DNA from: Flavobacterium luteolum
GTDB lineage: Bacteria; Bacteroidota; Bacteroidia; Flavobacteriales; Flavobacteriaceae
Assembly: GCF_027111275.1 (NCBI RefSeq)
Contig: NZ_CP114286.1
Span: 620,001-684,000 of the forward strand
Direction of reading: 5' to 3'
Length of the DNA stretch: 64,000 nt
Part shown: one piece after another, positions 18,682-61,495 of the stretch
How positions within the stretch are numbered: position 1 is the first letter of the stretch
Layout of the letters: each line of letters opens with the position of its first letter
Notes under the pieces: model-generated
What the model was told of the DNA's origin: nothing
What the model saw: only the letters and a program-made list of their open reading frames with translations
Databases searched by the model: none
Position numbers and translations under genes: made by a program

Positions 18682-21012
18682 CTAAATTCTATTTTTCATA
18701 TTAATAGATTTACCTGTTAAGCCAAATCTATCATATTTGTATCGAATAAATTTAGAATATCTATCTTCATGCGTTGAAAGAATTAATTGTTGATCACTAA
18801 AATTATACTTCAGCAATTCTACCAATGAATGAGTATTAATTTCATCTAAAGTCTGTAATGGATCATCAATTAAAATAGTTCCCAGTTTTGACTGATTAAA
18901 AACTTTATTCAAAACTAGCATTAAAGATATAACAGTTGCTGATAGCTGACCAGAACTTAAGAGATACGCCACTTCTTGATCTTTACAAGTTGGTCTTATA
19001 TAAACCTGTTTTTGTTTACCTGTTTCAAATTCTATAGAAAGCCCAGAACCTAAACTATGATTTTGTAAAATTTTACCAGTATATATGTGGAAAGGAATAC
19101 TTATTTTATTAATAATTTCTTCCGTGTAATCTTTTATTTTCTGATCATAAACTTTTATAATACCGTTCAATTTATCCTCAACAGTTTTAAGTTTATTATG
19201 CTTTAATTTAAAACTTTGTAGCTCAGAATCAATTGCTTTTAAATATTGCGATTGAACATATTTCTTTTTATCTAATATATCATCTGAAGTAACTTGTTCT
19301 AAAACTTCTAGTGATTTATTGAAATAGTTTTCAAAATCAGCTAAAACTGAATTAATTTCTATTTCTTCAGAAATTTTTGGCTTATTATCATTTATAAAAG
19401 AATATACTTTTCTGATAATTTCATCAATAGTATCAATAACTCTATTGTTTACAAGACTAATTAATTCATCTTTTTTATTCAATACAAACAATTCTAAAAA
19501 ATGATCAAACTTATTTTTCAAATTTTCAAATCTGTCCTTTAGCTGTAAAAATTCATCATTCCTTATTAATTTTTTATTTTCTTCATCTAAAGAATTATTT
19601 TCTTTTATCAAAAATTCTTTAATTGGATTCAGATTTTCATTAATCAATAATTGTTTTTGCTCTTCAAAATTTTTATTGTTAATTAAATAATCACTAAATA
19701 TCTTTTGCTGAGTAACATTTATCTGCTCGATTAATGCTTCATTCGTTTTCCAATCAAAGCCACAAGTGGGGCACTCGCCATCATTTAAATTAATGTGATT
19801 TTTATGTTCATTACGAAAATCAATTAAATCTTGCCTTCTATCTTTAAAATTTGATAAAATAGTATTTTGTATTGATAAACTTTCTTGTAAGCTTTTAACC
19901 AATCTAATTTTTACTAGAAATTCTTCTATATTAATTTTTAATTTTTCTTTTTCTAATAAAAAATTATAAAAAGATTCATCATTTAAATCGGTAAACTTTT
20001 GTTTCTCTATAAGCTCAATTTTTAAATTGTTATTTTTAATTTCTCTCTCGTTTTTATTCCTTGTAGAATATTCATTTTCTAAAAATTCAAAATTTGTTAT
20101 GCTCCAATAATTTTTTGAAAATTCTTCTGCGAATGTTAAGTTTGAATAATTATTTAATTTACTGATTAATTCGATATCATTTAATAAAGATTTATTCTCA
20201 AATAGATAGCTTATTTTATCTATTTCATTTAAGTATGAAATATTAATATCCAAGACAGTATTTTTAATTTCACTTTTATCCCATTCAAAATCTTTGTCTG
20301 AAATTAAACGCTTATAGCTTAATTCATAATTTATATTTGAAAAATCATAATTTAATTTTTCAATTTCACCAATTCTTTCTTTGTATTGCTTTTTTCTTCT
20401 AAAGATGTCTAAACCACATTGCGTGATTTTAATCAATTCGTTTCTTTCTTCTTCACCTCCAATTAATGAAACCAAAAAAGAATCATACCTATCTTTAGGG
20501 TCTTTTTTTAGAAAATAGGTATTTTCATCTTGTTCTACGTAATTTAGAACAGAATAAAGTTTATATAAATTTGAGAAATCTAATGTTTGTTCTAAAATAT
20601 CATAAGTAGATTCTTTATTATTGATAAAAAGAGTAGAATCGTTAAAAATTTGACTTATATTATTTGATTTTGATTTACCTATACTTTTCGGAAAAACTCT
20701 TTTTATTGAATGTTCTGTTTCATTTCCATCATTTATAATTAATTCCAACTCTACTTCTAAATTATTAGATTTATGTATTGGGCTATCCAAAAAAGTATAT
20801 CTAGCATCTAAGTTGACGTCTCTAAATCTTCTCGGCTTTTCAGTAAATAATATTTCTATAGCCTCAAAAACGGTGGTTTTACCATATCCGTTTGGTCCAT
20901 CAAAAACAATTAAATTATTAGAATCAAAACTAAATTCAATTTCATCAATGCATTTGAAATTTTTAATTTTTAATTGACTAATTCTAAATCTATTCCCTTG
21001 ATTCATTTTCAA
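18682..21012 (-). CDS. SMC/RecF-like ABC ATPase of a three-component conflict system
   Basis: A 776-residue ABC-type ATPase. Walker A GPNGYGKTT is at residues 39-47. Two long coiled-coil arms meet at a zinc-hook-like CPTC (residues 414-417). The signature LSSGQLSATVISL lies near 685, Walker B TILIDDPLQTLDE near 714, and the switch His in LSTHEDR near 747. This is a Rad50/SMC-like layout: head, hook, head. The start overlaps the end of the preceding gene by 23 bases. With the two upstream genes it matches the ABC-three-component (ABC-3C) architecture known from computational surveys of conflict systems. The gene is visibly more AT-rich than the flanking core genes, which suggests transfer. Its role is inferred to be sensing or loading on DNA and activating the effector. 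Confidence 0.8.
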   Translation of the reverse strand: MKMNQGNRFRISQLKIKNFKCIDEIEFSFDSNNLIVFDGPNGYGKTTVFEAIEILFTEKPRRFRDVNLDARYTFLDSPIHKSNNLEVELELIINDGNETEHSIKRVFPKSIGKSKSNNISQIFNDSTLFINNKESTYDILEQTLDFSNLYKLYSVLNYVEQDENTYFLKKDPKDRYDSFLVSLIGGEEERNELIKITQCGLDIFRRKKQYKERIGEIEKLNYDFSNINYELSYKRLISDKDFEWDKSEIKNTVLDINISYLNEIDKISYLFENKSLLNDIELISKLNNYSNLTFAEEFSKNYWSITNFEFLENEYSTRNKNEREIKNNNLKIELIEKQKFTDLNDESFYNFLLEKEKLKINIEEFLVKIRLVKSLQESLSIQNTILSNFKDRRQDLIDFRNEHKNHINLNDGECPTCGFDWKTNEALIEQINVTQQKIFSDYLINNKNFEEQKQLLINENLNPIKEFLIKENNSLDEENKKLIRNDEFLQLKDRFENLKNKFDHFLELFVLNKKDELISLVNNRVIDTIDEIIRKVYSFINDNKPKISEEIEINSVLADFENYFNKSLEVLEQVTSDDILDKKKYVQSQYLKAIDSELQSFKLKHNKLKTVEDKLNGIIKVYDQKIKDYTEEIINKISIPFHIYTGKILQNHSLGSGLSIEFETGKQKQVYIRPTCKDQEVAYLLSSGQLSATVISLMLVLNKVFNQSKLGTILIDDPLQTLDEINTHSLVELLKYNFSDQQLILSTHEDRYSKFIRYKYDRFGLTGKSINMKNRI

Positions 21013-21700
21013 ATAAATTATTAGTTAATAAAAAGTCTTCTATGTCTTGATTTTGGTAAAAATTACTTAGAATAGTCTCAACAAATATCTTTTCAGAATC
21101 ATTCAATTCTGAATTAATCTCATTTTTAATATTTTTTAATTGCTGATTATCATTTAAGGGAATATAGTTAAGAAAAGGAAGCTTAATAAACAAACTCATT
21201 AGAAGCTTATACCATGTTTCTTTTTTATTATTTAATAAACTACTATTTTTTATCGCTATTTTATTCAGTTCAACAATTGCATTTCTCGATTTAATCTTTT
21301 GTTTTAAATTGTTAACATCTTCTTTATTGTACGGCAGTATATATTTTTTAGCGATCCGATAATTCTCTTCAATTTTATGCAATTCTTTCAAAATTAAATC
21401 TGTTTCTTCTTCAAGGTTTAGAATTAAAATAAATGAAAGATTATAATCTAAATTAACAGCATCAAATTCTTTTAAATGTTTTTTTCTGATATCTTCTTCA
21501 ACGACAGCATTTATCAAAAATTCAAACTTAAATTCACTGTCTCCATTCAAAATCTTTAGTTCCTCATAACTCATAAATAACAAAACATAATAATCTTCCT
21601 TTCCGTCTTCAAAAAAAGTAAAATACATTTTGTAATCATATTGAATCTCATGAAATACCATTTTATTTTCAATCAATATTTCTTTAATAATCTCATCCAT
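20990..21700 (-). CDS. middle component of the three-gene ABC operon
   Basis: 236 residues, acidic, mostly helical with an N-terminal alpha/beta part. It overlaps the upstream gene by 8 bases and the ATPase gene by 23, so the three are translationally coupled. No domain recognised from sequence alone. Position and size fit the 'middle component' (MC) proteins of ABC-3C systems, which vary greatly and are named mainly by their place in the operon. Function unknown. Confidence 0.65.
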   Translation of the reverse strand: MDEIIKEILIENKMVFHEIQYDYKMYFTFFEDGKEDYYVLLFMSYEELKILNGDSEFKFEFLINAVVEEDIRKKHLKEFDAVNLDYNLSFILILNLEEETDLILKELHKIEENYRIAKKYILPYNKEDVNNLKQKIKSRNAIVELNKIAIKNSSLLNNKKETWYKLLMSLFIKLPFLNYIPLNDNQQLKNIKNEINSELNDSEKIFVETILSNFYQNQDIEDFLLTNNLFENESRE

Positions 21701-22886
21701 TGTTTATTTCTCTTATTGAATTTTCAACACTTTTAAATTCGAATTCAAACCTTTTATCGGTTATATCTAACCCTTTCTCTACTTCAAAATTTGGTTGCAT
21801 AATATTTCTTAAAACATCTTTTACTTGCTGTTTTTCTAAATTTAAATTTTGAGTAACAATAGTATTTATTTTACTCAAATTATTGTTTTCAATGTTTGAG
21901 CAAAACTCATAAAGTCTCTTTTTTTGATGCGTTCTAGAATTTTCATCAATGTTTAAATTAATTAAACTAAGTTGATAATTATTTTCATTATGATTATAAG
22001 TAAGGTCTTTAAACAATGGATCAATACCAATGTCTTCAAAACATTTAATTATTATTTCTCTTATTTCATTTTCAGGTAAATAACCAGTAAAATTTTCAAC
22101 TTTAATATCCTTTTCTAAAAGTATATGGGCATTTATTCTATCCTTAATCAATATTTTAATATCATCAGAAGGTAAGTCATTAATTTCTTCTAGATATCTA
22201 ATTAATTTTTGTTTTAGTCTACTCTCTATTGCATCATTTTCATCATATTGTTCGATACAATCTCTAATTGTCTTAAAAAATTTCTTTATAATTGAAATCC
22301 AAGCTATTTCTTCATTAAAAGCAAGATCAGAGTTCAAAATCCATTCTCGTATTTCATTAAGCGAAAAAGATTTAACCGTTTTAGTTCTATGTCTCTCTTT
22401 TATTGCAGAACATATTTTGTAACAACTATAATTCCTCTTTAATTCAACATCAGAATTGTTTAATCCAGGCAAAAGTAATTTTATAGCATCATCAATTTTT
22501 GTTGTTATATTTTCAAGAGTATAAACTCCAGATAATACATTTGCTTCTAGTCTTTCCTTTTCTAGAGTTACATTAAATTTATTTAGCTCAATATCACTTT
22601 TATGGAGGTAAAGAAAATTGCGTTGGGCATTATCAGGAAATCGAGTCATCATATCATCCCATGCCTTTGAATATTTCGTATAATTATGTGTTCCGTATGC
22701 TTTAACTTGAAAGGCTTCCCAAATATTTGTCGTTATTGAAAAATCCTCATCCTCTTCTAATTTTAGACAATAAGATTCTGGAATATCATTCCCTAATAAT
22801 TTATTAATTTCTTCAAGCGCTTTACATAAAGCTACCTCACCTTGAAATATATATCCCGACCAACTGGGTGTAGCATCTGTACTCAT
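21693..22886 (-). CDS. nuclease-like effector candidate of the three-gene ABC operon
   Basis: 397 residues; first gene of the operon. The N-terminus has the SWSGYIFQ motif (residues 8-15), then an acidic block EEDEDF with Asp48, then EAFQVKAY with Gln60-x-Lys62. The order GxxxQ, D, QxK is that of restriction-endonuclease-fold nucleases such as the Cap4/DUF4297 type. The rest (about 120-397) is helical and not recognised. I infer a DNA- or RNA-cutting effector; it could equally be a catalytically weak sensor, since the acidic motif is only loosely conserved. The gene is AT-rich like the two that follow. Confidence 0.65.
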   Translation of the reverse strand: MSTDATPSWSGYIFQGEVALCKALEEINKLLGNDIPESYCLKLEEDEDFSITTNIWEAFQVKAYGTHNYTKYSKAWDDMMTRFPDNAQRNFLYLHKSDIELNKFNVTLEKERLEANVLSGVYTLENITTKIDDAIKLLLPGLNNSDVELKRNYSCYKICSAIKERHRTKTVKSFSLNEIREWILNSDLAFNEEIAWISIIKKFFKTIRDCIEQYDENDAIESRLKQKLIRYLEEINDLPSDDIKILIKDRINAHILLEKDIKVENFTGYLPENEIREIIIKCFEDIGIDPLFKDLTYNHNENNYQLSLINLNIDENSRTHQKKRLYEFCSNIENNNLSKINTIVTQNLNLEKQQVKDVLRNIMQPNFEVEKGLDITDKRFEFEFKSVENSIREINNG

Positions 22887-23972: not shown

Positions 23973-24100
23973 TAGAAGAAAGAAGCAAGAGGCAAGACGG
24001 TCATATCTTTCTTCTTGGTTCTTGTTTCTTTCTTTTCCAAAATTCAAAGAAGCAAGAAAGAAATCTCAAAAATCTTGCTTCTTGTCTCTTGCTTCTTCTT
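23973..24100. repeat. inverted repeat of the AGAAGCAAGA family
   Basis: The left arm 23974-23997 (AGAAGAAAGAAGCAAGAGGC...) pairs with the right arm 24073-24100; an inner pair lies near 24010-24033 and 24046-24063. It abuts the rtcB stop codon. The same family flanks the four-helix-bundle gene at 34023-34516 and occurs empty at 32735-32802. Confidence 0.75.
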
Positions 24101-25520
24101 AGTCTTCTCGGCTTCCATCATCAGCCATTCTAACCAATTTCGGTGTAAACTTCGCCACAACATCAACTAAATCCTGTTGCGCTTCCATCACCTGATTGAT
24201 ATCTTTATATGCCATTGGGGCTTCGTCAAGACCTGCTCCGATAAGCGTAACGCGATGATCTCTCAGGATCGATTTCATTTCGGTTTGTGTGATGTTTTTT
24301 ATGGCTTGCGTTCTGCTCATTTGTCTTCCTGCTCCATGCGAAGCCGAATTGATGGCATTCTCCTCGCCTTTTCCTCTCACCAAAAATCCTGGCGCGGTCA
24401 TACTTCCCGGAATGATTCCCATAACGCCTTTTCCGGCTGGAGTTGCTCCTTTTCTATGTACGATCACTTCTTCGTCGTTCCAGATTTCTTTCCAAGCAAA
24501 ATTATGGTGGTTTTCGACTTTGGCTAAAATCGTTGCTCCCAAAGCGCGTTCCATTTTGTTATGGATAATCTCGTGACAAGCCGAAGCATAATCTCCCGCC
24601 AAATTCATCGCCAGCCAATATTCCTGACCTAATTGCGAATTCATATCTAAATACGCTAAATTTCTGGCAACTTCTGGAAGTTTACATTCGTCTTTGGCGA
24701 TTTTGGTATAATGACCTGCAATGGTCGCACCCATTCCGCGTGAACCGGAATGCGTTAACAAAGCGACGTATTTTCCTTTTGGGATATTCAAAACCGCATC
24801 GTCTTGCGCAAATTCCATGATTCCGAATTCCACAAAGTGATTTCCACCACCCGAAGATCCTAATTGCGACCAGGCTTTATCTTTCAAGTTCTTCACAAAC
24901 GCATTCATATTAAACGTTTCGTTCTCCAAAACCGCATGATCTGATTTGTACTGACCGTGAAATCCGTGACCTGCTCCAAAAATAGAATTCGCAATTAACT
25001 CTTTTTTAAATTTGGCTTCATTTTCAAAGTAAAACTCTTCTGGAATATCATAAACCGACAACGCCATTCTACATCCAATATCAACACCAACACCATACGG
25101 AATAATGGCATTTTTTGTGGCTAGAACTCCGCCAATTGGTAATCCGTAACCTTGGTGCGCGTCTGGCATTAAAGCTCCAGCAACCGTAATAGGCAGTTTC
25201 ATGGCAACTTCCATTTGTTTTCTGGCTCCGTCCTCGATATGATCCAATCCGTAAGCCGAATACGCATTCGGAGTTTCATTTAAAGCAATGAAATCTTCTG
25301 GTTTTTCATTCGATTTTTCGATTAAAGCCACAGCCAGTTTGCTGAAGATTTTATCGTCTATATAGTTTTCCGGAGTTTCTAAGACGTTTTTAAAATTAGC
25401 CATCATTTCGTCTCTTGTGAATCCGTTTCTTTTGCTGTTTATTTTTAAGGCGATTCCGATTATTTTTCCTTCTGGAAATCCTAATTCTAATATATCTGTA
25501 CCGTTTATTTGTGTTTTCAT
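24099..25520 (-). CDS. rtcB: RtcB-family RNA ligase
   Basis: 473 residues from the ATG at 25520. An upstream in-frame TTG falls inside repeat DNA and is rejected as start. RtcB joins 3'-phosphate or 2',3'-cyclic-phosphate ends to 5'-OH ends using GTP and Mn. Seen: GVDIGCRMALSV (metal Cys region), SSGGGNHFVEFG with the HF motif, HSGSRGMG, HNFAWK, and the Ser/Gly-rich C-terminal SHGAGRQMSR with its nucleophilic His. It is the short bacterial type. It follows slipin on the same strand, and tRNA-like sequences lie upstream of slipin, so it belongs to a putative RNA-repair operon. Confidence 0.95.
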   Translation of the reverse strand: MKTQINGTDILELGFPEGKIIGIALKINSKRNGFTRDEMMANFKNVLETPENYIDDKIFSKLAVALIEKSNEKPEDFIALNETPNAYSAYGLDHIEDGARKQMEVAMKLPITVAGALMPDAHQGYGLPIGGVLATKNAIIPYGVGVDIGCRMALSVYDIPEEFYFENEAKFKKELIANSIFGAGHGFHGQYKSDHAVLENETFNMNAFVKNLKDKAWSQLGSSGGGNHFVEFGIMEFAQDDAVLNIPKGKYVALLTHSGSRGMGATIAGHYTKIAKDECKLPEVARNLAYLDMNSQLGQEYWLAMNLAGDYASACHEIIHNKMERALGATILAKVENHHNFAWKEIWNDEEVIVHRKGATPAGKGVMGIIPGSMTAPGFLVRGKGEENAINSASHGAGRQMSRTQAIKNITQTEMKSILRDHRVTLIGAGLDEAPMAYKDINQVMEAQQDLVDVVAKFTPKLVRMADDGSRED

Positions 25521-25545
25521 TTTTTCTTTTTTAAGGGACAAAGGC

Positions 25546-25665
25546 GCAAAGGTTTTTTTACTGCTTCGCAGTTGTTCTGCATAACTATTTTAATTCTAAG
25601 TTTTTTTGCTCCGCGAAGACATATTTCTCGCAAAGTCGCAGAGACGCAAAGGTTTTTTGATTTAA
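25546..25665. repeat. GCAAAG-type interspersed repeat
   Basis: Units such as GGGACAAAGGCGCAAAGG (25539-25556) and CGCAAAGTCGCAGAGACGCAAAGG; the same family as 6880-7142. Confidence 0.5.
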
Positions 25666-25772: not shown

Positions 25773-26870
25773 TTATTTCACGAAAATTTCTTTCAATTGA
25801 CTGATTACGTTTCCACCGCCCGAAATCGTAATTTCACCAATTTTATCAGCAATTTTTTCTACATATTCCATCTCTTTCAATTTCCACAACATTTCATTTT
25901 CTTCCATAAGCTTTGCTGTGTTTAATAAACTTCTTGTTGCAGCAGTTTCCTCTCTTCTCATAATGCTATTTGCTTGCGCTTTCTTCTCAGCAACCAAAAC
26001 CTGGTTCATAATTTCCTTCATATCACCTGGCAAGATTACATCTCTAATTCCTGCATCTGAAATTACTAAACCTAAATCTTTGATTTTAGTTTTTGCATCT
26101 TCTAAAATAGCATCTCCAATGGCATCTTTTTTAGTCAATAATTCGTCCAAGGTCAAACCTCCAATAAAGGCTCTTAAAGCCAATTGCATTGCGACATACA
26201 ATTGTTTTTCGAAATCTTTATTATCAACCAAAGCTTTCAAAATATCTACAACTTGATATCTTACAAAAAAATTGATTCGTAATCCAGCCTTATCTTTGGT
26301 TAACAATTCCTGACCAGAAATTTCAACTTGTTGTTGTCTTGTATCTACTGTTTTAACTTCGATCGTGATTGCATTATTCCAAAAATAATGAGTTCCTGAT
26401 TTCAATTCTTTTACGAAAGTACCATTTACAAACAACAAAGCTTTGTCATTGCTTGATACAATGTATTTTCTTGTAAAGAATCTCATTTTAGCATTTTCCA
26501 ATAAATTAACTCCAATGTCTTCTGTAATTTCGATTTTAGATAAATCTGCTTTTATAAACTCATTTTTTACAATTCCTTTCCAAAAAGCGTATTTTCCTGG
26601 CACCAAAACTTCTTTGAAATTTCCTTTAACGAATTGCAAAACAATTTCGTTATCGGCAACCTCAACAATTTCTAAAAGTGAATTTAAAACTTCATTTTGC
26701 AATAAAATATCCAATTCAAAAGGTGCTTGAAAAGATCCGTTTACATCGTAAATCATTACATTTTTGTTTCCGACAATCCAGTGTAATCCTTCTTCAATCA
26801 CTTTTACTAATTTTCTGTTTTCGAACACCAAGCCCACTTGGAATGCTTCGATTTTAATTCTTTTAATCAT
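25773..26870 (-). CDS. slipin (SPFH/band 7) protein
   Basis: 365 residues. The C-terminal two thirds form a band-7 domain (about 150-310: TVDTRQQQVEISGQELLTKDK, INFFVRYQV, DAGIRDVILPGDMKEIMNQVLVAEKKAQAN) followed by a helical tail. The first 150 residues are a beta-rich half resembling a degenerate repeat of the same fold (GLHWIVGNKNVMIYDVNGSFQ, VPGKYAFWKG). There is no clear N-terminal transmembrane helix. Slipins of this type recur next to rtcB in many bacteria. They are thought to assemble scaffolds at membranes, but their role with RtcB is not known. The gap to rtcB holds repeats, so co-transcription is likely but not proven. Confidence 0.85.
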   Translation of the reverse strand: MIKRIKIEAFQVGLVFENRKLVKVIEEGLHWIVGNKNVMIYDVNGSFQAPFELDILLQNEVLNSLLEIVEVADNEIVLQFVKGNFKEVLVPGKYAFWKGIVKNEFIKADLSKIEITEDIGVNLLENAKMRFFTRKYIVSSNDKALLFVNGTFVKELKSGTHYFWNNAITIEVKTVDTRQQQVEISGQELLTKDKAGLRINFFVRYQVVDILKALVDNKDFEKQLYVAMQLALRAFIGGLTLDELLTKKDAIGDAILEDAKTKIKDLGLVISDAGIRDVILPGDMKEIMNQVLVAEKKAQANSIMRREETAATRSLLNTAKLMEENEMLWKLKEMEYVEKIADKIGEITISGGGNVISQLKEIFVK

Positions 26871-27103: not shown

Positions 27104-27266
27104 CAATCAAACCGAAAAGAAAACAAGCGTTTCAAAACATATTGATACTCGCACAGGCTTTATCAGAGTGTGAAATTTCAGATTCGAAAATCGTGATTGC
27201 ACTGACAAAGACAAATCAGTTTTTTTCCTAATGGTCATCTTTTTAAGAGTGATGGTCTCTGAAAAT

Positions 27267-27336
27267 ACAGATTTTTAGTCTGCTGACTTACCAATTCGTC
27301 CAATCAACCATAGGTTGATGCAGGATTCGAACCTGC
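27267..27336 (-). ncRNA. tRNA mimic M1, circularly permuted arm order
   Basis: Read on the minus strand: T stem-loop GCAGG-TTCGAAT-CCTGC (27336-27320), acceptor-like strands ATCAACC and GGTTGAT (27319-27313 and 27309-27303; seven perfect pairs) closed by TAT, linker TG, D arm GAC-GAATTGGTAA-GTC (27300-27285), then an anticodon-like arm GCAGA-CTAAAAA-TCTGT (27283-27267). Every piece of a tRNA is present, but the 3' half precedes the 5' half and the acceptor is capped by three bases, so there is no free CCA end. The anticodon loop would read AAA. The D loop and anticodon arm resemble tRNA-Leu. It is directly downstream of M2 with a 5-base spacer. Confidence 0.7.
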
Positions 27337-27341
27337 AGATT

Positions 27342-27408
27342 TCTATTACTCTAACCGGACTGAGCTACCGCATTACTGCGAATGGGATTCGAACCCATGA
27401 CAAATAGA
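27342..27408 (-). ncRNA. tRNA mimic M2, circularly permuted, ends in the anticodon stem
   Basis: Read on the minus strand: TCTAT (paired at the end with ATAGA), 5-base variable loop TTGTC, T arm ATGGG-TTCGAAT-CCCAT (27386-27382 and 27398-27394 as stems), acceptor-like stem TCGCA/TGCGG capped by GTAA (27381-27368), T8-A9-like TA, D arm GCTC-AGTCCGGTTA-GAGT (27365-27348), A26, ATAGA. Spacings equal those of a class I tRNA with the anticodon loop removed and the acceptor closed by a tetraloop. Bacterial Y RNAs (YrlA type) carry tRNA-like modules and are often found near Ro60 and RtcB genes; this fits that idea, but no Ro60 gene is in the window. Confidence 0.75.
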
Positions 27409-27414
27409 TTGTGA

Positions 27415-27436
27415 GATAGTTTTTTGGAAAACTACC
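27415..27436 (-). other. 9-bp stem-loop just upstream of tRNA mimic M2
   Basis: GGTAGTTTT-CCAA-AAAACTATC on the minus strand, one G-U pair. It probably belongs to the same RNA as M2 and M1. Confidence 0.5.
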
Positions 27437-27503
27437 AAAACCTCCAAACCAAGCTGCATAGAAAAACATAATACGCTTTAGCGAAAAGTCTGCTACAATG
27501 GTG

Positions 27504-27623
27504 CTATACAGAAACACCCAACGAGGCTTGTTTGATATTTTCTTCAAAGTTTCCTTTGATCATTTCAATTTCTAAAAGAACTTGTTTTATTTCTTGAGCA
27601 AAGATTTCAAAACCACTACGCAA
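27504..27623 (-). CDS. possible small ORF upstream of the tRNA mimics
   Basis: TTG at 27623 (stop codon directly before it) opens a 39-codon frame ending TAG at 27504-27506; an internal ATG at 27563 would give 19 residues. The product has a heptad-like helix (IFAQEIKQVLLEIEMIKG). It starts inside the palindrome between the divergent promoters. It could be a leader peptide or not translated at all. Confidence 0.3.
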   Translation of the reverse strand: MRSGFEIFAQEIKQVLLEIEMIKGNFEENIKQASLGVSV

Positions 27624-27638
27624 TTATTTTGCGCAGTG
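27614..27638. promoter_or_regulatory. palindrome between the rtcB and HD-WYL operons, candidate WYL operator
   Basis: CACTACGCAA and TTGCGCAGTG (one G-U-type mismatch) flank 5 bases. It overlaps the TTG of the rightward promoter and lies upstream of the leftward transcript. It is a logical site for the WYL regulator encoded next door. Confidence 0.45.
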
Positions 27639-27671: not shown

Positions 27672-28286
27672 ATGAGTTTAAAAGAAATTTATTCTGATTT
27701 ACTTTCTAATATTGGTTTTTCAGCCAATGAAATTCAGCAAAACTGGTTGGATTTAGAAAAGGCATATTCCAAAAAATCAAGGCATTACCACAATTTCACG
27801 CATTTAAAAGAAATGATTGAAAGTTTTGAAGCGTATCGAGACAAACTTGAAAACCCAAACGAAATATTATTTTCAATTTTTTATCATGATTTTGTTTATT
27901 CGGCTTCTAAAAAAGATAACGAACTTAAAAGTGCTGAATATGCTTTGGCTGTTTTACCTGAAAATAGCAATCTAAATAAGCAATTGGTTTTTGATGCGAT
28001 CTGCGCCACACAGCAACATCAGCAAAATGAAATTGAAGACATTAACTGGTTAATCGATTTTGATTTAAAAATCCTCGCTAAAGATTGGGAAGATTATAAA
28101 ATCTACTTCGAACAAATCAGAAAAGAATATCGCATTTATCCTGATTTTCTATACAAACCCGGGCGTGCAAAAGCGTTGAAACATTTTCTGGAGAATGAGT
28201 TTATTTTTCAGACTGATGCGTTTAGGAGTTTGTATGAAGAGAAAGCGAGAGCGAATATCGAAAAAGAAATAAAGTTATTAAGCTAA
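27672..28286 (+). CDS. HD-superfamily predicted metal-dependent hydrolase
   Basis: 204 residues of the COG4339 type. Metal-ligand motifs visible: SRHYHNFTHL (His pair), FYHDFVYS (HD), and a later Asp in INWLIDFDLKIL. No regulatory domain is attached. The family is predicted to hydrolyse phosphate esters; its substrate is unknown. It is the first gene rightward from the rtcB locus, divergent from the slipin-rtcB operon, and precedes the WYL regulator. I infer a place in RNA or nucleotide end processing from context only. Confidence 0.8.
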   Translation: MSLKEIYSDLLSNIGFSANEIQQNWLDLEKAYSKKSRHYHNFTHLKEMIESFEAYRDKLENPNEILFSIFYHDFVYSASKKDNELKSAEYALAVLPENSNLNKQLVFDAICATQQHQQNEIEDINWLIDFDLKILAKDWEDYKIYFEQIRKEYRIYPDFLYKPGRAKALKHFLENEFIFQTDAFRSLYEEKARANIEKEIKLLS

Positions 28287-28572: not shown

Positions 28573-29610
28573 ATGTCACAAAACAAAAACGCCTTAATTC
28601 GCTACAAAACGATCGATAAATGTCTACAGAATAAATACCGGCAATGGACATTAGAAGATTTAATCGAAGAATGTTCTGAAGCTTTATTTGAATACGAAGG
28701 AAGACAGAATCCAATCAGCAAACGAACGATTCAGATGGATATTCAGCTCATGCGAAGTGAAAAACTAGGTTATAATGCGCCAATCGTGGTTTATGATAAA
28801 AAGTATTATAAATATGAAGACGAAGATTTTTCGATAACCGATATTCCGCTGACGGAAACAGATATGAATGTTTTAACGGAAACGGTTTCTATGCTGAAAC
28901 AGTTTAAAGATTTCTCTCTTTTTAATGATGTTTCAGATATTCTGCAGAGATTGGAAGATAAAATCTACGCTGAGAAATCGCATACCAAACCCGTTATTTA
29001 TCTGGATAAAAATGAGAAACTAAAAGGACTGCATTATTTAGACGAAATTTATCAGGCGATAATTAAAAAAGTTACGTTGGTAATTACTTATAAATCTTTT
29101 AAATCGCAAGAAGAAACAAAATTTCATTTTCATCCCTTTATATTAAAGGAATTCAATAACCGTTGGTTTTTAATCGGAAGGAAAAAAGCCTCTCAACCAA
29201 TTACCAATTTGGCTTTGGATAGAATTATAGCAATTGATTATGATTTCAACCTTCCTTATATAGAAGAAGATTTTGACGCTGATTTATTTTATAAAAACGT
29301 AATTGGGGTCACGGTTAATACTGGTTTAAAACCCAAACGAATCGAACTTTGGATTGATGCCGTAAATGCACCTTATGTTCTGACAAAACCTTTGCATCAG
29401 TCTCAGCGTTTAATTAAAGAAAATGAAGATCAAAGTATCATTGTTCATGTTTTTCTTTTGCCAAATTATGAAATGGAACGCATTTTATTAGGTTTCGGAG
29501 ATGGAATTGAAATTCTTCGACCCGAAAACCTTCGAAACCGAATGAAAAAAATCCTTCAGAAGGCAATTTCGAGATATGATTCTGAAAAACCAACTGAAAT
29601 AAATGCATAA
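28573..29610 (+). CDS. WYL-domain transcriptional regulator
   Basis: 345 residues. The N-terminal winged-helix region (about 1-80, TIDKCLQNKYRQWTLEDLIEEC) is followed by a WYL domain (about 150-230, with FILKEFNNRWFLIGRKK) and a WCX C-terminal extension. WYL proteins bind nucleic-acid ligands or nucleotides and control phage-defence and RNA-repair genes. Here it is next to the rtcB-slipin locus and probably regulates it, perhaps through the palindrome at 27614-27638. It is downstream of the HD gene on the same strand, though a large repeat lies between them. Confidence 0.88.
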   Translation: MSQNKNALIRYKTIDKCLQNKYRQWTLEDLIEECSEALFEYEGRQNPISKRTIQMDIQLMRSEKLGYNAPIVVYDKKYYKYEDEDFSITDIPLTETDMNVLTETVSMLKQFKDFSLFNDVSDILQRLEDKIYAEKSHTKPVIYLDKNEKLKGLHYLDEIYQAIIKKVTLVITYKSFKSQEETKFHFHPFILKEFNNRWFLIGRKKASQPITNLALDRIIAIDYDFNLPYIEEDFDADLFYKNVIGVTVNTGLKPKRIELWIDAVNAPYVLTKPLHQSQRLIKENEDQSIIVHVFLLPNYEMERILLGFGDGIEILRPENLRNRMKKILQKAISRYDSEKPTEINA

Positions 29611-60280: not shown

Positions 60281-61495
60281 ATGAGATTACACAGAAATTT
60301 AGTTTATACTACCATTGACTCTTTAAATGCAATTTTCAACGAAGGAGAATATGCTGATAAAGTGGTAGCAAGAGCATTAAAAAAAGACAAACGTTGGGGA
60401 AGTTCTGACAGGAAGTTTGTTGCTGAAACCATATACGAAATTGTTCGCTGGAAACGATTATACGCAGAAATTGCCGAAGTAAAAGAACCTTACGACAGAG
60501 ACAATCTATGGAGAATGTTTGCGGTTTGGGCTGTTTTACGCGGTTATCCAATTCCAGATTGGAGACAATTGGAAGGAACTCCTGAAAGAAAAATAAAAGG
60601 ACGTTTTGACGAATTATCTAAGACTAGAGCTATCAAAGAATCTATTCCAGATTGGATGGATGAATTGGGCGTAAAAGAACTTGGAGAAAAAGTTTGGGCT
60701 AAAGAAATTGCTGCGCAAAATCAGCCTGCAAAAGTTATTCTTAGAACCAATACTTTAAAAGGCACCAAAGAAAGTCTTCGCAATACTTTAATGGACTTAA
60801 ATATTGAAACTGAATATTTAAAAGACCAGCCAGAAGCTCTTGTTCTAAAAGAAAGAGCAAATGTATTTTTGACAGATGCATTTAAACAAGGTCTTTTTGA
60901 AGTTCAAGATGCCAACTCTCAATTAGTTGCAGGATTCTTGGATGTAAAACCAGGAATGCGTGTTGTAGATACTTGCGCTGGTGCAGGCGGAAAAACATTG
61001 CATATGGCTTCTTTAATGGAAAATAAAGGGCAATTGATTGCAATGGACTTGTACGAAAGCAAATTGAAGCAATTGAAATTAAGAGCAAAAAGAAATGGTG
61101 CTTTTAATATCGAATACAGAATTATCGACAGCACAAAAGTGATCAAAAAATTACACGAAAAAGCAGACCGTGTTTTAATTGATGCACCTTGTAGCGGATT
61201 AGGAGTTTTAAAAAGAAACCCTGATTCTAAATGGAAATTACAACCTGAATTTATCGATAATATTCGTAAAGTTCAGAGTGAAGTTTTGGAAAGCTATTCT
61301 AAAATTGTAAAACCAGGCGGAAAATTAGTTTATGCAACTTGTTCAGTTCTTCCATCAGAAAACCAAGAGCAAGTAGAGAAATTCTTAAAAACAGAAATCG
61401 GACAGCAATTTACTTTTATTGAAGATCGTAAAATGTTAGCTTCAGAATCTGGTTTTGATGGTTTCTATATGGCGCTTTTGGAAAGAAAAAAATAA
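60281..61495 (+). CDS. RsmB/NOP-family RNA (cytosine-C5) methyltransferase
   Basis: 404 residues. The N-terminal helical NusB-like part (1-130) is followed by a SAM methyltransferase core. VVDTCAGAGGKTLHMASL is motif I, DAPCSGLGVLKRNPDSKWK is motif IV with its Cys, and YATCSVLPSENQEQV is motif VI with the catalytic Cys. RsmB-like enzymes methylate C5 of cytosine in rRNA (m5C967 in 16S in E. coli). The exact target here is inferred only. Promoter and terminator flank it. Confidence 0.9.
   Translation: MRLHRNLVYTTIDSLNAIFNEGEYADKVVARALKKDKRWGSSDRKFVAETIYEIVRWKRLYAEIAEVKEPYDRDNLWRMFAVWAVLRGYPIPDWRQLEGTPERKIKGRFDELSKTRAIKESIPDWMDELGVKELGEKVWAKEIAAQNQPAKVILRTNTLKGTKESLRNTLMDLNIETEYLKDQPEALVLKERANVFLTDAFKQGLFEVQDANSQLVAGFLDVKPGMRVVDTCAGAGGKTLHMASLMENKGQLIAMDLYESKLKQLKLRAKRNGAFNIEYRIIDSTKVIKKLHEKADRVLIDAPCSGLGVLKRNPDSKWKLQPEFIDNIRKVQSEVLESYSKIVKPGGKLVYATCSVLPSENQEQVEKFLKTEIGQQFTFIEDRKMLASESGFDGFYMALLERKK

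Follow-up and report, generated by a model that had tools for sequence, protein, structure and literature searches.

Bacterial RNA-repair systems with SPFH/Band-7 modules are said, in the abstract of the 2016 survey by Burroughs and Aravind (NAR), to include a novel tRNA-like cognate RNA. Circularly permuted tRNA genes are known from archaea and algae. In YrlA, as described in an excerpted source, a stem bound by Rsr is connected to a tRNA-like domain to which PNPase binds (PMC8394870). According to excerpts of a study in Anabaena, deletion of one repressor raises the levels of a 26-gene tRNA operon, rtcB (all3526) and slipin (alr0740), with the tRNA operon being activated by translational stress (PMC10272220). 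Here, a 64,000-nucleotide stretch of the genome of Flavobacterium luteolum (NCBI RefSeq assembly GCF_027111275.1, contig NZ_CP114286.1, positions 620,001 to 684,000 of the forward strand; the window) was considered, with the focus being on an RNA predicted upstream of genes encoding a slipin and the RNA ligase RtcB. Comparison of homologous leaders shows that a conserved structured RNA is encoded on the same strand as slipin, in the interval that separates slipin from a palindrome. With a length of some 270 nt or more, it comprises a predicted three-way-junction 5' domain, a hairpin, two acceptor-capped tRNA-like cores and a terminal anticodon-like arm. The distribution of predicted homologues likewise shows this RNA to be tied to slipin.

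Two permuted tRNA-like modules in tandem

Direct reading of the minus strand, with coordinates counted by hand, revealed two permuted, acceptor-capped tRNA mimics, termed M2 (27408-27342; the first in transcript order) and M1 (27336-27267; the second). In both, the arms follow the order T arm, closed acceptor-like stem, D arm. The individual arms listed here were assigned by reading, while the modules as units are also defined by the descriptor and covariation, together with an RF02553 alignment for M2 and an alignment of homologues for M1.

27342 to 27408, minus strand: first permuted tRNA-like module, M2
27408-27404 (TCTAT) with 27346-27342 (ATAGA), minus strand: M2 closing stem, anticodon-stem-like
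27398-27382, minus strand: M2 T arm
27381-27368, minus strand: M2 acceptor-like stem, five pairs (TCGCA/TGCGG), cap GTAA
27365-27348, minus strand: M2 D arm, preceded by T8-A9
27267 to 27336, minus strand: second permuted tRNA-like module, M1
27336-27320, minus strand: M1 T arm
27319-27303, minus strand: M1 acceptor-like stem, seven pairs (ATCAACC/GGTTGAT), cap TAT
27300-27285, minus strand: M1 D arm
27283-27267, minus strand: M1 anticodon-like arm, loop CTAAAAA

Neither module was called by ARAGORN or by Rfam at gathering scores, the sole call in the window being a tRNA-His elsewhere, and Rfam tRNA matches were subthreshold (18.9-25.6 bits). At a relaxed threshold, the Rfam model of YrlA (RF02553) aligned to M2 (E 1.3e-4 in 801 nt) across the T arm, capped stem, D arm and closing stem. 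The fold energy of the single sequence was undistinctive (z -1.38; 20 of 200 shuffles were equally good); the case against chance is made from comparative evidence.

Conservation and covariation of the modules

A DNA search identified two clear homologues among 60 relatives, both directly upstream of slipin and both with complementary changes in their capped stems. A set of 100 leaders was assembled from the window, the best 80 of 168 loci from a slipin search (Flavobacterium or Flavobacteriaceae/Flavobacteriales records) and 19 further loci. A structural descriptor detected the tandem pair in 92 of the 100, the remaining eight being L054, L055, L068, L083, L101 (with a leader of 67 nt), L015, L020 and L019. 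From the 81 leaders with a module spacing of 60-73 came 62 non-redundant candidates, of which 60 (the window and 59 relatives; L118 and L011 were omitted) make up an alignment, A4, in which 33 pairs were named by the author. Counted without regard to phylogeny, 93.8% of A4 pair cells were paired, as compared to 78.8% upon shuffling and 35-45% upon sliding, with 308 cells showing double changes, as compared to 82.6 upon shuffling. The first-module acceptor-like helix was paired in 99.7% of cells and showed double changes in 5/5 pairs; the corresponding helix of the second module, whose register is less well aligned, was paired in 77.4% and showed double changes in 6/6, with the descriptor-based choice of rows favoring both values. 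Residues of the tRNA core are nearly fixed in the first module (U8 in 59/60, and A14, G19 and T54-T55-C56-A58 each in 60/60), and the tertiary pair 15-48 covaries (CG in 50 and TA in 8 of the 60), with the TA cases being scattered.

As regards conservation, descriptor bias is absent, or nearly so, from the T, D and closing helices. Since the descriptor itself demands complementarity, a test blind to complementarity was added, in which T arms were picked by T stem and loop alone in the window and the 80 slipin loci, in a zone from 250 to 1000 nt ahead of slipin. A hairpin that was capped and had 5 bp or more came after 152 of the 173 zone T arms (88%), as opposed to 39 of 173 when the following bases were shuffled and 57 of 230 T arms (25%) farther upstream. 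By locus, exactly two such T arms were found in 70 of 81 cases and at least one in 80. The sequence-only reading of the window had described two tandem permuted tRNA mimics, for which direct reading gave identical coordinates, and had staked its proposal in part on conservation and covariation of the arms at other loci; both were found, in A4 and in the blind test.

According to the descriptor, the cap is 3-5 nt long in 153 of 184 modules and contains CCA in one of the 184, while the first-module stem is 5 bp long in 50 of 92 loci. The descriptor also detected three permuted modules rather than two in L129. By eye, the first module of the L036 leader resembles a permuted class II tRNA-Leu whose ends lie in the variable arm.

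The modules as part of a larger RNA

M2 and M1 both belong to a longer conserved RNA, the 5' start of which lies near 27535 or upstream. The elements flanking the modules are as follows.

27444 to 27535, minus strand: conserved 5' domain, predicted three-way junction (anchor motif; covariation in alignment A5)
27415 to 27436, minus strand: hairpin with CCAAA in the loop, between the 5' domain and the first module (A5)
27236 to 27254, minus strand: downstream hairpin CATC...GATG, loop containing CTCTTAAAA (seen in alignments)

The anchor motif of the 5' domain occurs in 91 of the 92 leaders with tandem modules, and the three-way junction was first suggested by RNAalifold on 21 loci. Alignment A5, which contains 49 of those 91 leaders after removal of near-duplicates and includes other genera, predicts 27 pairs across the 5' domain and the next hairpin, 19 of which changed on both sides. 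In the CCAAA hairpin (A5 columns 108-112/130-134), each of the five pairs shows at least one double change. At least one anticodon-like arm with a 7-nt loop follows the second module in 77 of 92 loci, a count for which there is no chance control, with the loops found after the modules reading CTCAAAA (30), CTGAAAA (19) or CTTTTAA (13). Several loci from other genera present two successive arms after the modules, the first usually being CTTTTAA; in L012, L016, L010, L018 and L011, a CTTTTAA arm is followed by a CTCAAAA or CTGAAAA arm.

The RNA is associated with slipin

The genes downstream of the RNA are as follows.

25773 to 26870, minus strand: slipin, an SPFH/Band-7 protein of 365 aa (Pfam Band_7, 2.4e-28; structure model and fold search)
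24099 to 25541, minus strand: rtcB, encoding an RNA ligase of 480 aa (Pfam RtcB, 1.3e-83)

The window slipin is up to 96% identical to Flavobacterium records. When 150 Flavobacterium genomes were searched with R1, a covariance model of the modules, 25 matches of at least 85 bits were obtained in 24 genomes, the next match scoring 66 bits and the rest below. Upon comparison of coordinates by hand, all 25 strong matches were seen to lie 278-507 nt upstream of slipin, on the same strand. Slipin itself is present in 35 of the 150 genomes, 24 of which contain a strong match. At the scale of the phylum, R1 scored at least 83 bits in 10 of 296 genomes, including that of the window, and adjoined slipin in all ten; two of these genomes are also in the genus set, while one match is from another family of the order and one from elsewhere in the class. 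As a less biased check, the Rfam YrlA model was used, with slipin being found in 18 of the 30 loci examined (L010-L039). In genome G423, slipin is broken (G423:C1:2971235-2972330), yet an upstream RNA match of 62.7 bits persists.

The placement of the modules upstream of slipin-rtcB that had been proposed holds in the window. By contrast, the gene to which the RNA is closely tied is slipin and not rtcB: in addition to the window, rtcB comes directly after slipin in 4 of 80 loci, and it falls within the examined flanks in 26 of 80. Nor does anything point to the suggested circularization of the RNA by RtcB. A second RtcB gene is found in the same genome (G000:C1:4300528-4301604).

Relation to Y RNAs and Ro60

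The tandem modules had been likened to Y RNAs of the YrlA type, a likeness supported by the alignment of RF02553 to M2. The score of 30.9 bits is below the gathering score of 69 bits; since Y RNAs at the Ro60 loci searched (6 of 10) score 24-43 bits with the same model, the same range as M2, that threshold is undiscriminating here. The remark that no Ro60 is encoded nearby can be extended, in that a TROVE search found no TROVE/Ro60 gene anywhere in the window genome (G000), in which the window is part of one contig of 5.36 Mb. Ro60 occurs in 10 of the 150 Flavobacterium genomes, four of which also have slipin, with slipin being broken in one of the four. Ro60 loci contain several Y RNAs, some with permuted modules of the same kind but with a different stem. 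The stem motif TGTCGT...TACTTCG, taken as the putative Ro60-binding stem as deduced from the Flavobacterium Ro60 loci, is present in all ten of these, in 3-5 copies each, but none was found in the 100 slipin leaders, which measure up to 1.4 kb; its one match in the window, at 60497, falls within the span of an open reading frame (ORF) of 404 aa. The module is thus common to both, with the remainder of the RNA differing; the RNA would appear to work like a Y RNA module without necessarily being a Y RNA.

At Ro60 locus L135 (2787-3450), direct reading revealed tandem Y RNAs in the interval from Ro60 to rtcB, and several of these contain permuted tRNA-like modules. Flavo-1 RNA (RF01705) was detected near Ro60 loci in L138 (2324-2424) and L143 (871-970).

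A palindrome shared with RNA-repair genes

The region upstream of the RNA contains a palindrome and two plus-strand genes, and a further palindrome-like site precedes rtcB.

27616 to 27636, minus strand: palindrome CTGCGCAAAATAATTGCGTAG, candidate operator common to RNA-repair genes (pattern search)
25564 to 25584, minus strand: palindrome-like site ahead of rtcB, possibly a decayed copy, four mismatches to the pattern (by eye)
27672 to 28286, plus strand: 204-aa protein divergent from the RNA, across the palindrome (ORF; homologue in L161)
28573 to 29610, plus strand: WYL-domain protein, candidate regulator (Pfam WYL and WCX)

With the looser pattern CT.CGC(9)GCG.AG, the palindrome, CTRCGCANAATAAYTGCGYAG, was found ahead of the first module in 51 of 76 Flavobacterium module leaders, that of the window included, at a median of 246 nt before the module. 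It precedes the RNA in most leaders, and none was found between the RNA and slipin. In L040, L075, L083, L090, L092, L094 and L095, a copy stands 42-86 nt ahead of the rtcB match, that of the relative L040 being intact and just before rtcB. In relatives, the palindrome also precedes Ro60, Y RNAs and a gene for a T4-type RNA ligase (one site exact, one with 2 mismatches). In eight genomes searched with up to 2 mismatches, 36 palindrome sites were found, versus 3 for a reversed control, and slipin, rtcB, Ro60 or a module was present in 18 of the 30 palindrome loci examined.

Because the palindrome precedes the RNA and, in relatives, rtcB, Ro60, Y RNAs and an RNA-ligase gene, a single RNA-repair regulon is suggested. 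It is in this form, as an apparent regulon with a shared palindrome, that the RNA-repair setting earlier proposed for the locus stands. The WYL protein may be the regulator acting at the palindrome. The palindrome is also found, in other genomes, near a homologue of the 204-aa gene, with the window protein being 92% identical to a 204-aa protein near the palindrome in L161; no match to it was found in Pfam or NCBIfam.

RlaP, an RNase_T exonuclease and a T4-type ligase are among the representative proteins of these islands. In 52 of 80 loci, two or more co-oriented ARAGORN tRNA calls lie within 6 kb upstream of slipin, a count that includes calls inside modules (51 without that in L105). Arrays of 7-13 ARAGORN tRNA genes on the slipin strand occur in L010, L012, L022, L025, L026, L074, L076, L087 and others; in the window, ARAGORN found no tRNA array upstream of slipin. 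Beside the RNA-repair genes of the window, at 18682-22886 on the minus strand, lies a probable Lamassu-type defence system, with a 776-aa protein matching PADLOC LmuB (4.2e-52) and a weak ABC-3C-type neighbor.

A proposed scaffold RNA and the alternatives to it

The reading tentatively favored is that of a Ro60-independent, Y-RNA-like scaffold RNA that is paired with slipin and made upon RNA damage. RNA damage in the form of tRNA cleavage would relieve repression at the palindrome, and the RNA would be transcribed as the slipin(-rtcB) leader. The 5' domain, standing where Y RNAs carry the Ro60-binding stem, would bind an assembly of slipin, a member of the SPFH family, which is said in an excerpted source to form rings. 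The two uncharged tRNA mimics would then hold tRNA-binding enzymes, such as repair ligases, nucleases and modification enzymes, on the scaffold. Overall, the RNA would act as a Y RNA in which slipin replaces Ro60. In favor of this reading are the covariation, including that of the 15-48 pair, the blind T-arm test, the adjacency of the strong R1 matches and of many YrlA-model matches to slipin, the shared palindrome, the permuted modules with a different stem in Ro60 loci, the SPFH identity of slipin and the two-part make-up of YrlA. A further point in favor is that some copy of RtcB is encoded in 32 of the 35 slipin-bearing genomes as compared to 29 of the 115 others (Fisher 1.4e-12).

Several points weigh against this reading. 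R1 was trained on slipin-linked RNAs, that of the window included, and is therefore biased, and 11 of the 35 slipin-bearing genomes (G012, G020, G023, G359, G379, G381, G396, G418, G423, G442 and G468) have no strong R1 match; among these, G379, G396 and G423 show weaker slipin-adjacent matches (57-63 bits), and the G012 leader (L006) presents a tandem pair by the descriptor despite its lack of a strong match. The A4 rows were chosen by a descriptor requiring capped stems, and the A4 cell counts, the 15-48 test and the RtcB test take no account of phylogeny or genome size. An exact palindrome was not found in 25 of the 76 Flavobacterium module leaders, and of the 26 loci in which rtcB is within reach, 7 have a copy before it. 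In 12 of the 30 palindrome loci, neither slipin, rtcB or Ro60 nor a module was seen; the three other sites in the window genome (L155, L162 and L169) are among those 12. Finally, adjacency to slipin suits a cis-acting leader equally well.

Such a leader and a decoy are the serious rivals to a scaffold. As a decoy, which is possible though doubtful, the capped mimics with their anticodon-like loops would absorb anticodon nucleases or other tRNA-attacking effectors, sparing tRNAs while RtcB repairs the rest. The anticodon-like arm after the second module (77/92 loci, without a chance control) is consistent with such a role, as are the co-oriented tRNA calls upstream in 52/80 loci, which fit tRNA replacement, and competitive inhibition was proposed for YrlA in excerpts of PMC7790460. 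The first module, however, lacks its own anticodon loop, the loop sequence varies and so presents no single fixed target, and the large conserved 5' domain would be superfluous. Fragments of Salmonella YrlA were, moreover, undetected, indicating that the stress nuclease did not cut it, although the excerpted authors still held uncut YrlA to be compatible with inhibition (PMC7790460). In a cis-acting sensor leader, an unlikely though serious alternative, cleavage or binding at the modules would switch the translation or stability of the slipin-rtcB message. The 25 strong matches on the slipin strand, 278-507 nt before slipin, would suit this, as would a palindrome mostly before the RNA and not found between the RNA and slipin. 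Yet a simple scan of the minus strand of the leader, alternative pairing not being searched for, found no terminator-like site, and the modules seem built for stable folding rather than switching.

Two further explanations concern the origin of the modules. With the 3' half before the 5' half, complementary acceptor halves and RtcB nearby, the modules recall a permuted tRNA gene, in which RtcB would join the ends and the cap would be cut out to give a working tRNA. This is most improbable, given that the first-module stem is of 5 bp in 50/92 loci (M1 of the window does have 7 bp), that caps are of 3-5 nt in 153/184 modules and that CCA is found in 1/184. Hardly credible is a decayed tRNA array, with leftover halves of adjoining tRNA genes merely resembling a permutation. 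True tRNA arrays do lie upstream in 52/80 loci, and the YrlA model also matches ordinary tRNA junctions, but such an array is contradicted by the blind T-arm test (88% versus 25% farther upstream) and by the covariation of the first-module acceptor-like helix (99.7% paired, 5/5 double changes, in descriptor-picked rows).

Comparison with known systems

The RNA considered here resembles YrlA (RF02553) in the permuted T arm, capped stem and D arm within a closing stem, and in the nearby RNA-repair genes. It differs in that no Ro60 gene was found in the genome and no Ro60-type stem motif in the RNA, and in having two modules in a row, a long 5' domain of its own and slipin as partner gene. Like circularly permuted tRNA genes, the modules place the 3' half upstream of the 5' half; unlike them, they have short stems and caps, scarcely any CCA, and stand in tandem inside a larger conserved RNA.

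A likeness to the eukaryotic vault can also be drawn, as excerpts of PMC7916137 describe a scaffold protein with an SPFH-like part (MVP), a TROVE protein (TEP1) and a tRNA-related vault RNA. MVP chains could be aligned to almost the full extent of the slipin model, as far as residue 324, whereas stomatin-type SPFH chains outscore MVP over residues 109-324, and a fold search with the N-terminal region alone gave no significant match; the slipin alignment (A6) comprises 40 slipins. It is conceivable, if rather doubtful, that slipin and the RNA form a Ro60-free particle, with a distantly vault-like SPFH cage and an RNA of its own that displays the two sealed tRNA mimics, in parallel to a Ro60-Y RNA particle under the same palindrome. 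If so, bacteria would have exchanged one protein ring for another (Ro60 or slipin) and retained the tRNA-mimic module.

In context, a tRNA-like RNA beside an SPFH/Band-7 gene, the locus fits the RNA reported by Burroughs and Aravind. Because their abstract reportedly pairs a tRNA-like RNA with SPFH/Band-7, the RNA is probably of the same class, and the class itself is thus probably not new. A literature search found no description of the tandem RNA, although the key YrlA papers and the 2016 survey fell outside that search, such that absence from print is not established. As far as the searches show, the permutation, tandem layout, 5' domain, Ro60 independence and shared palindrome are apparent additions. 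The Y-RNA tRNA-mimic module is thus seen outside the Ro60 setting, joined to a different neighboring protein and RNA domain, which enables comparison of the role of the mimic when the ring protein changes.

The apparent regulon is like that of TrcR in Anabaena, where tRNA genes, rtcB and slipin are under one repressor; it differs in that the Anabaena regulon is from another phylum, has scattered genes and a ribbon-helix-helix regulator, and, in the excerpts of that report, goes without mention of a tRNA-mimic RNA (PMC10272220). In Bacteroidota, the locus and its relatives would connect tRNA arrays with RNA ligases, slipin and mimic RNAs, in a manner akin to the Anabaena regulon.
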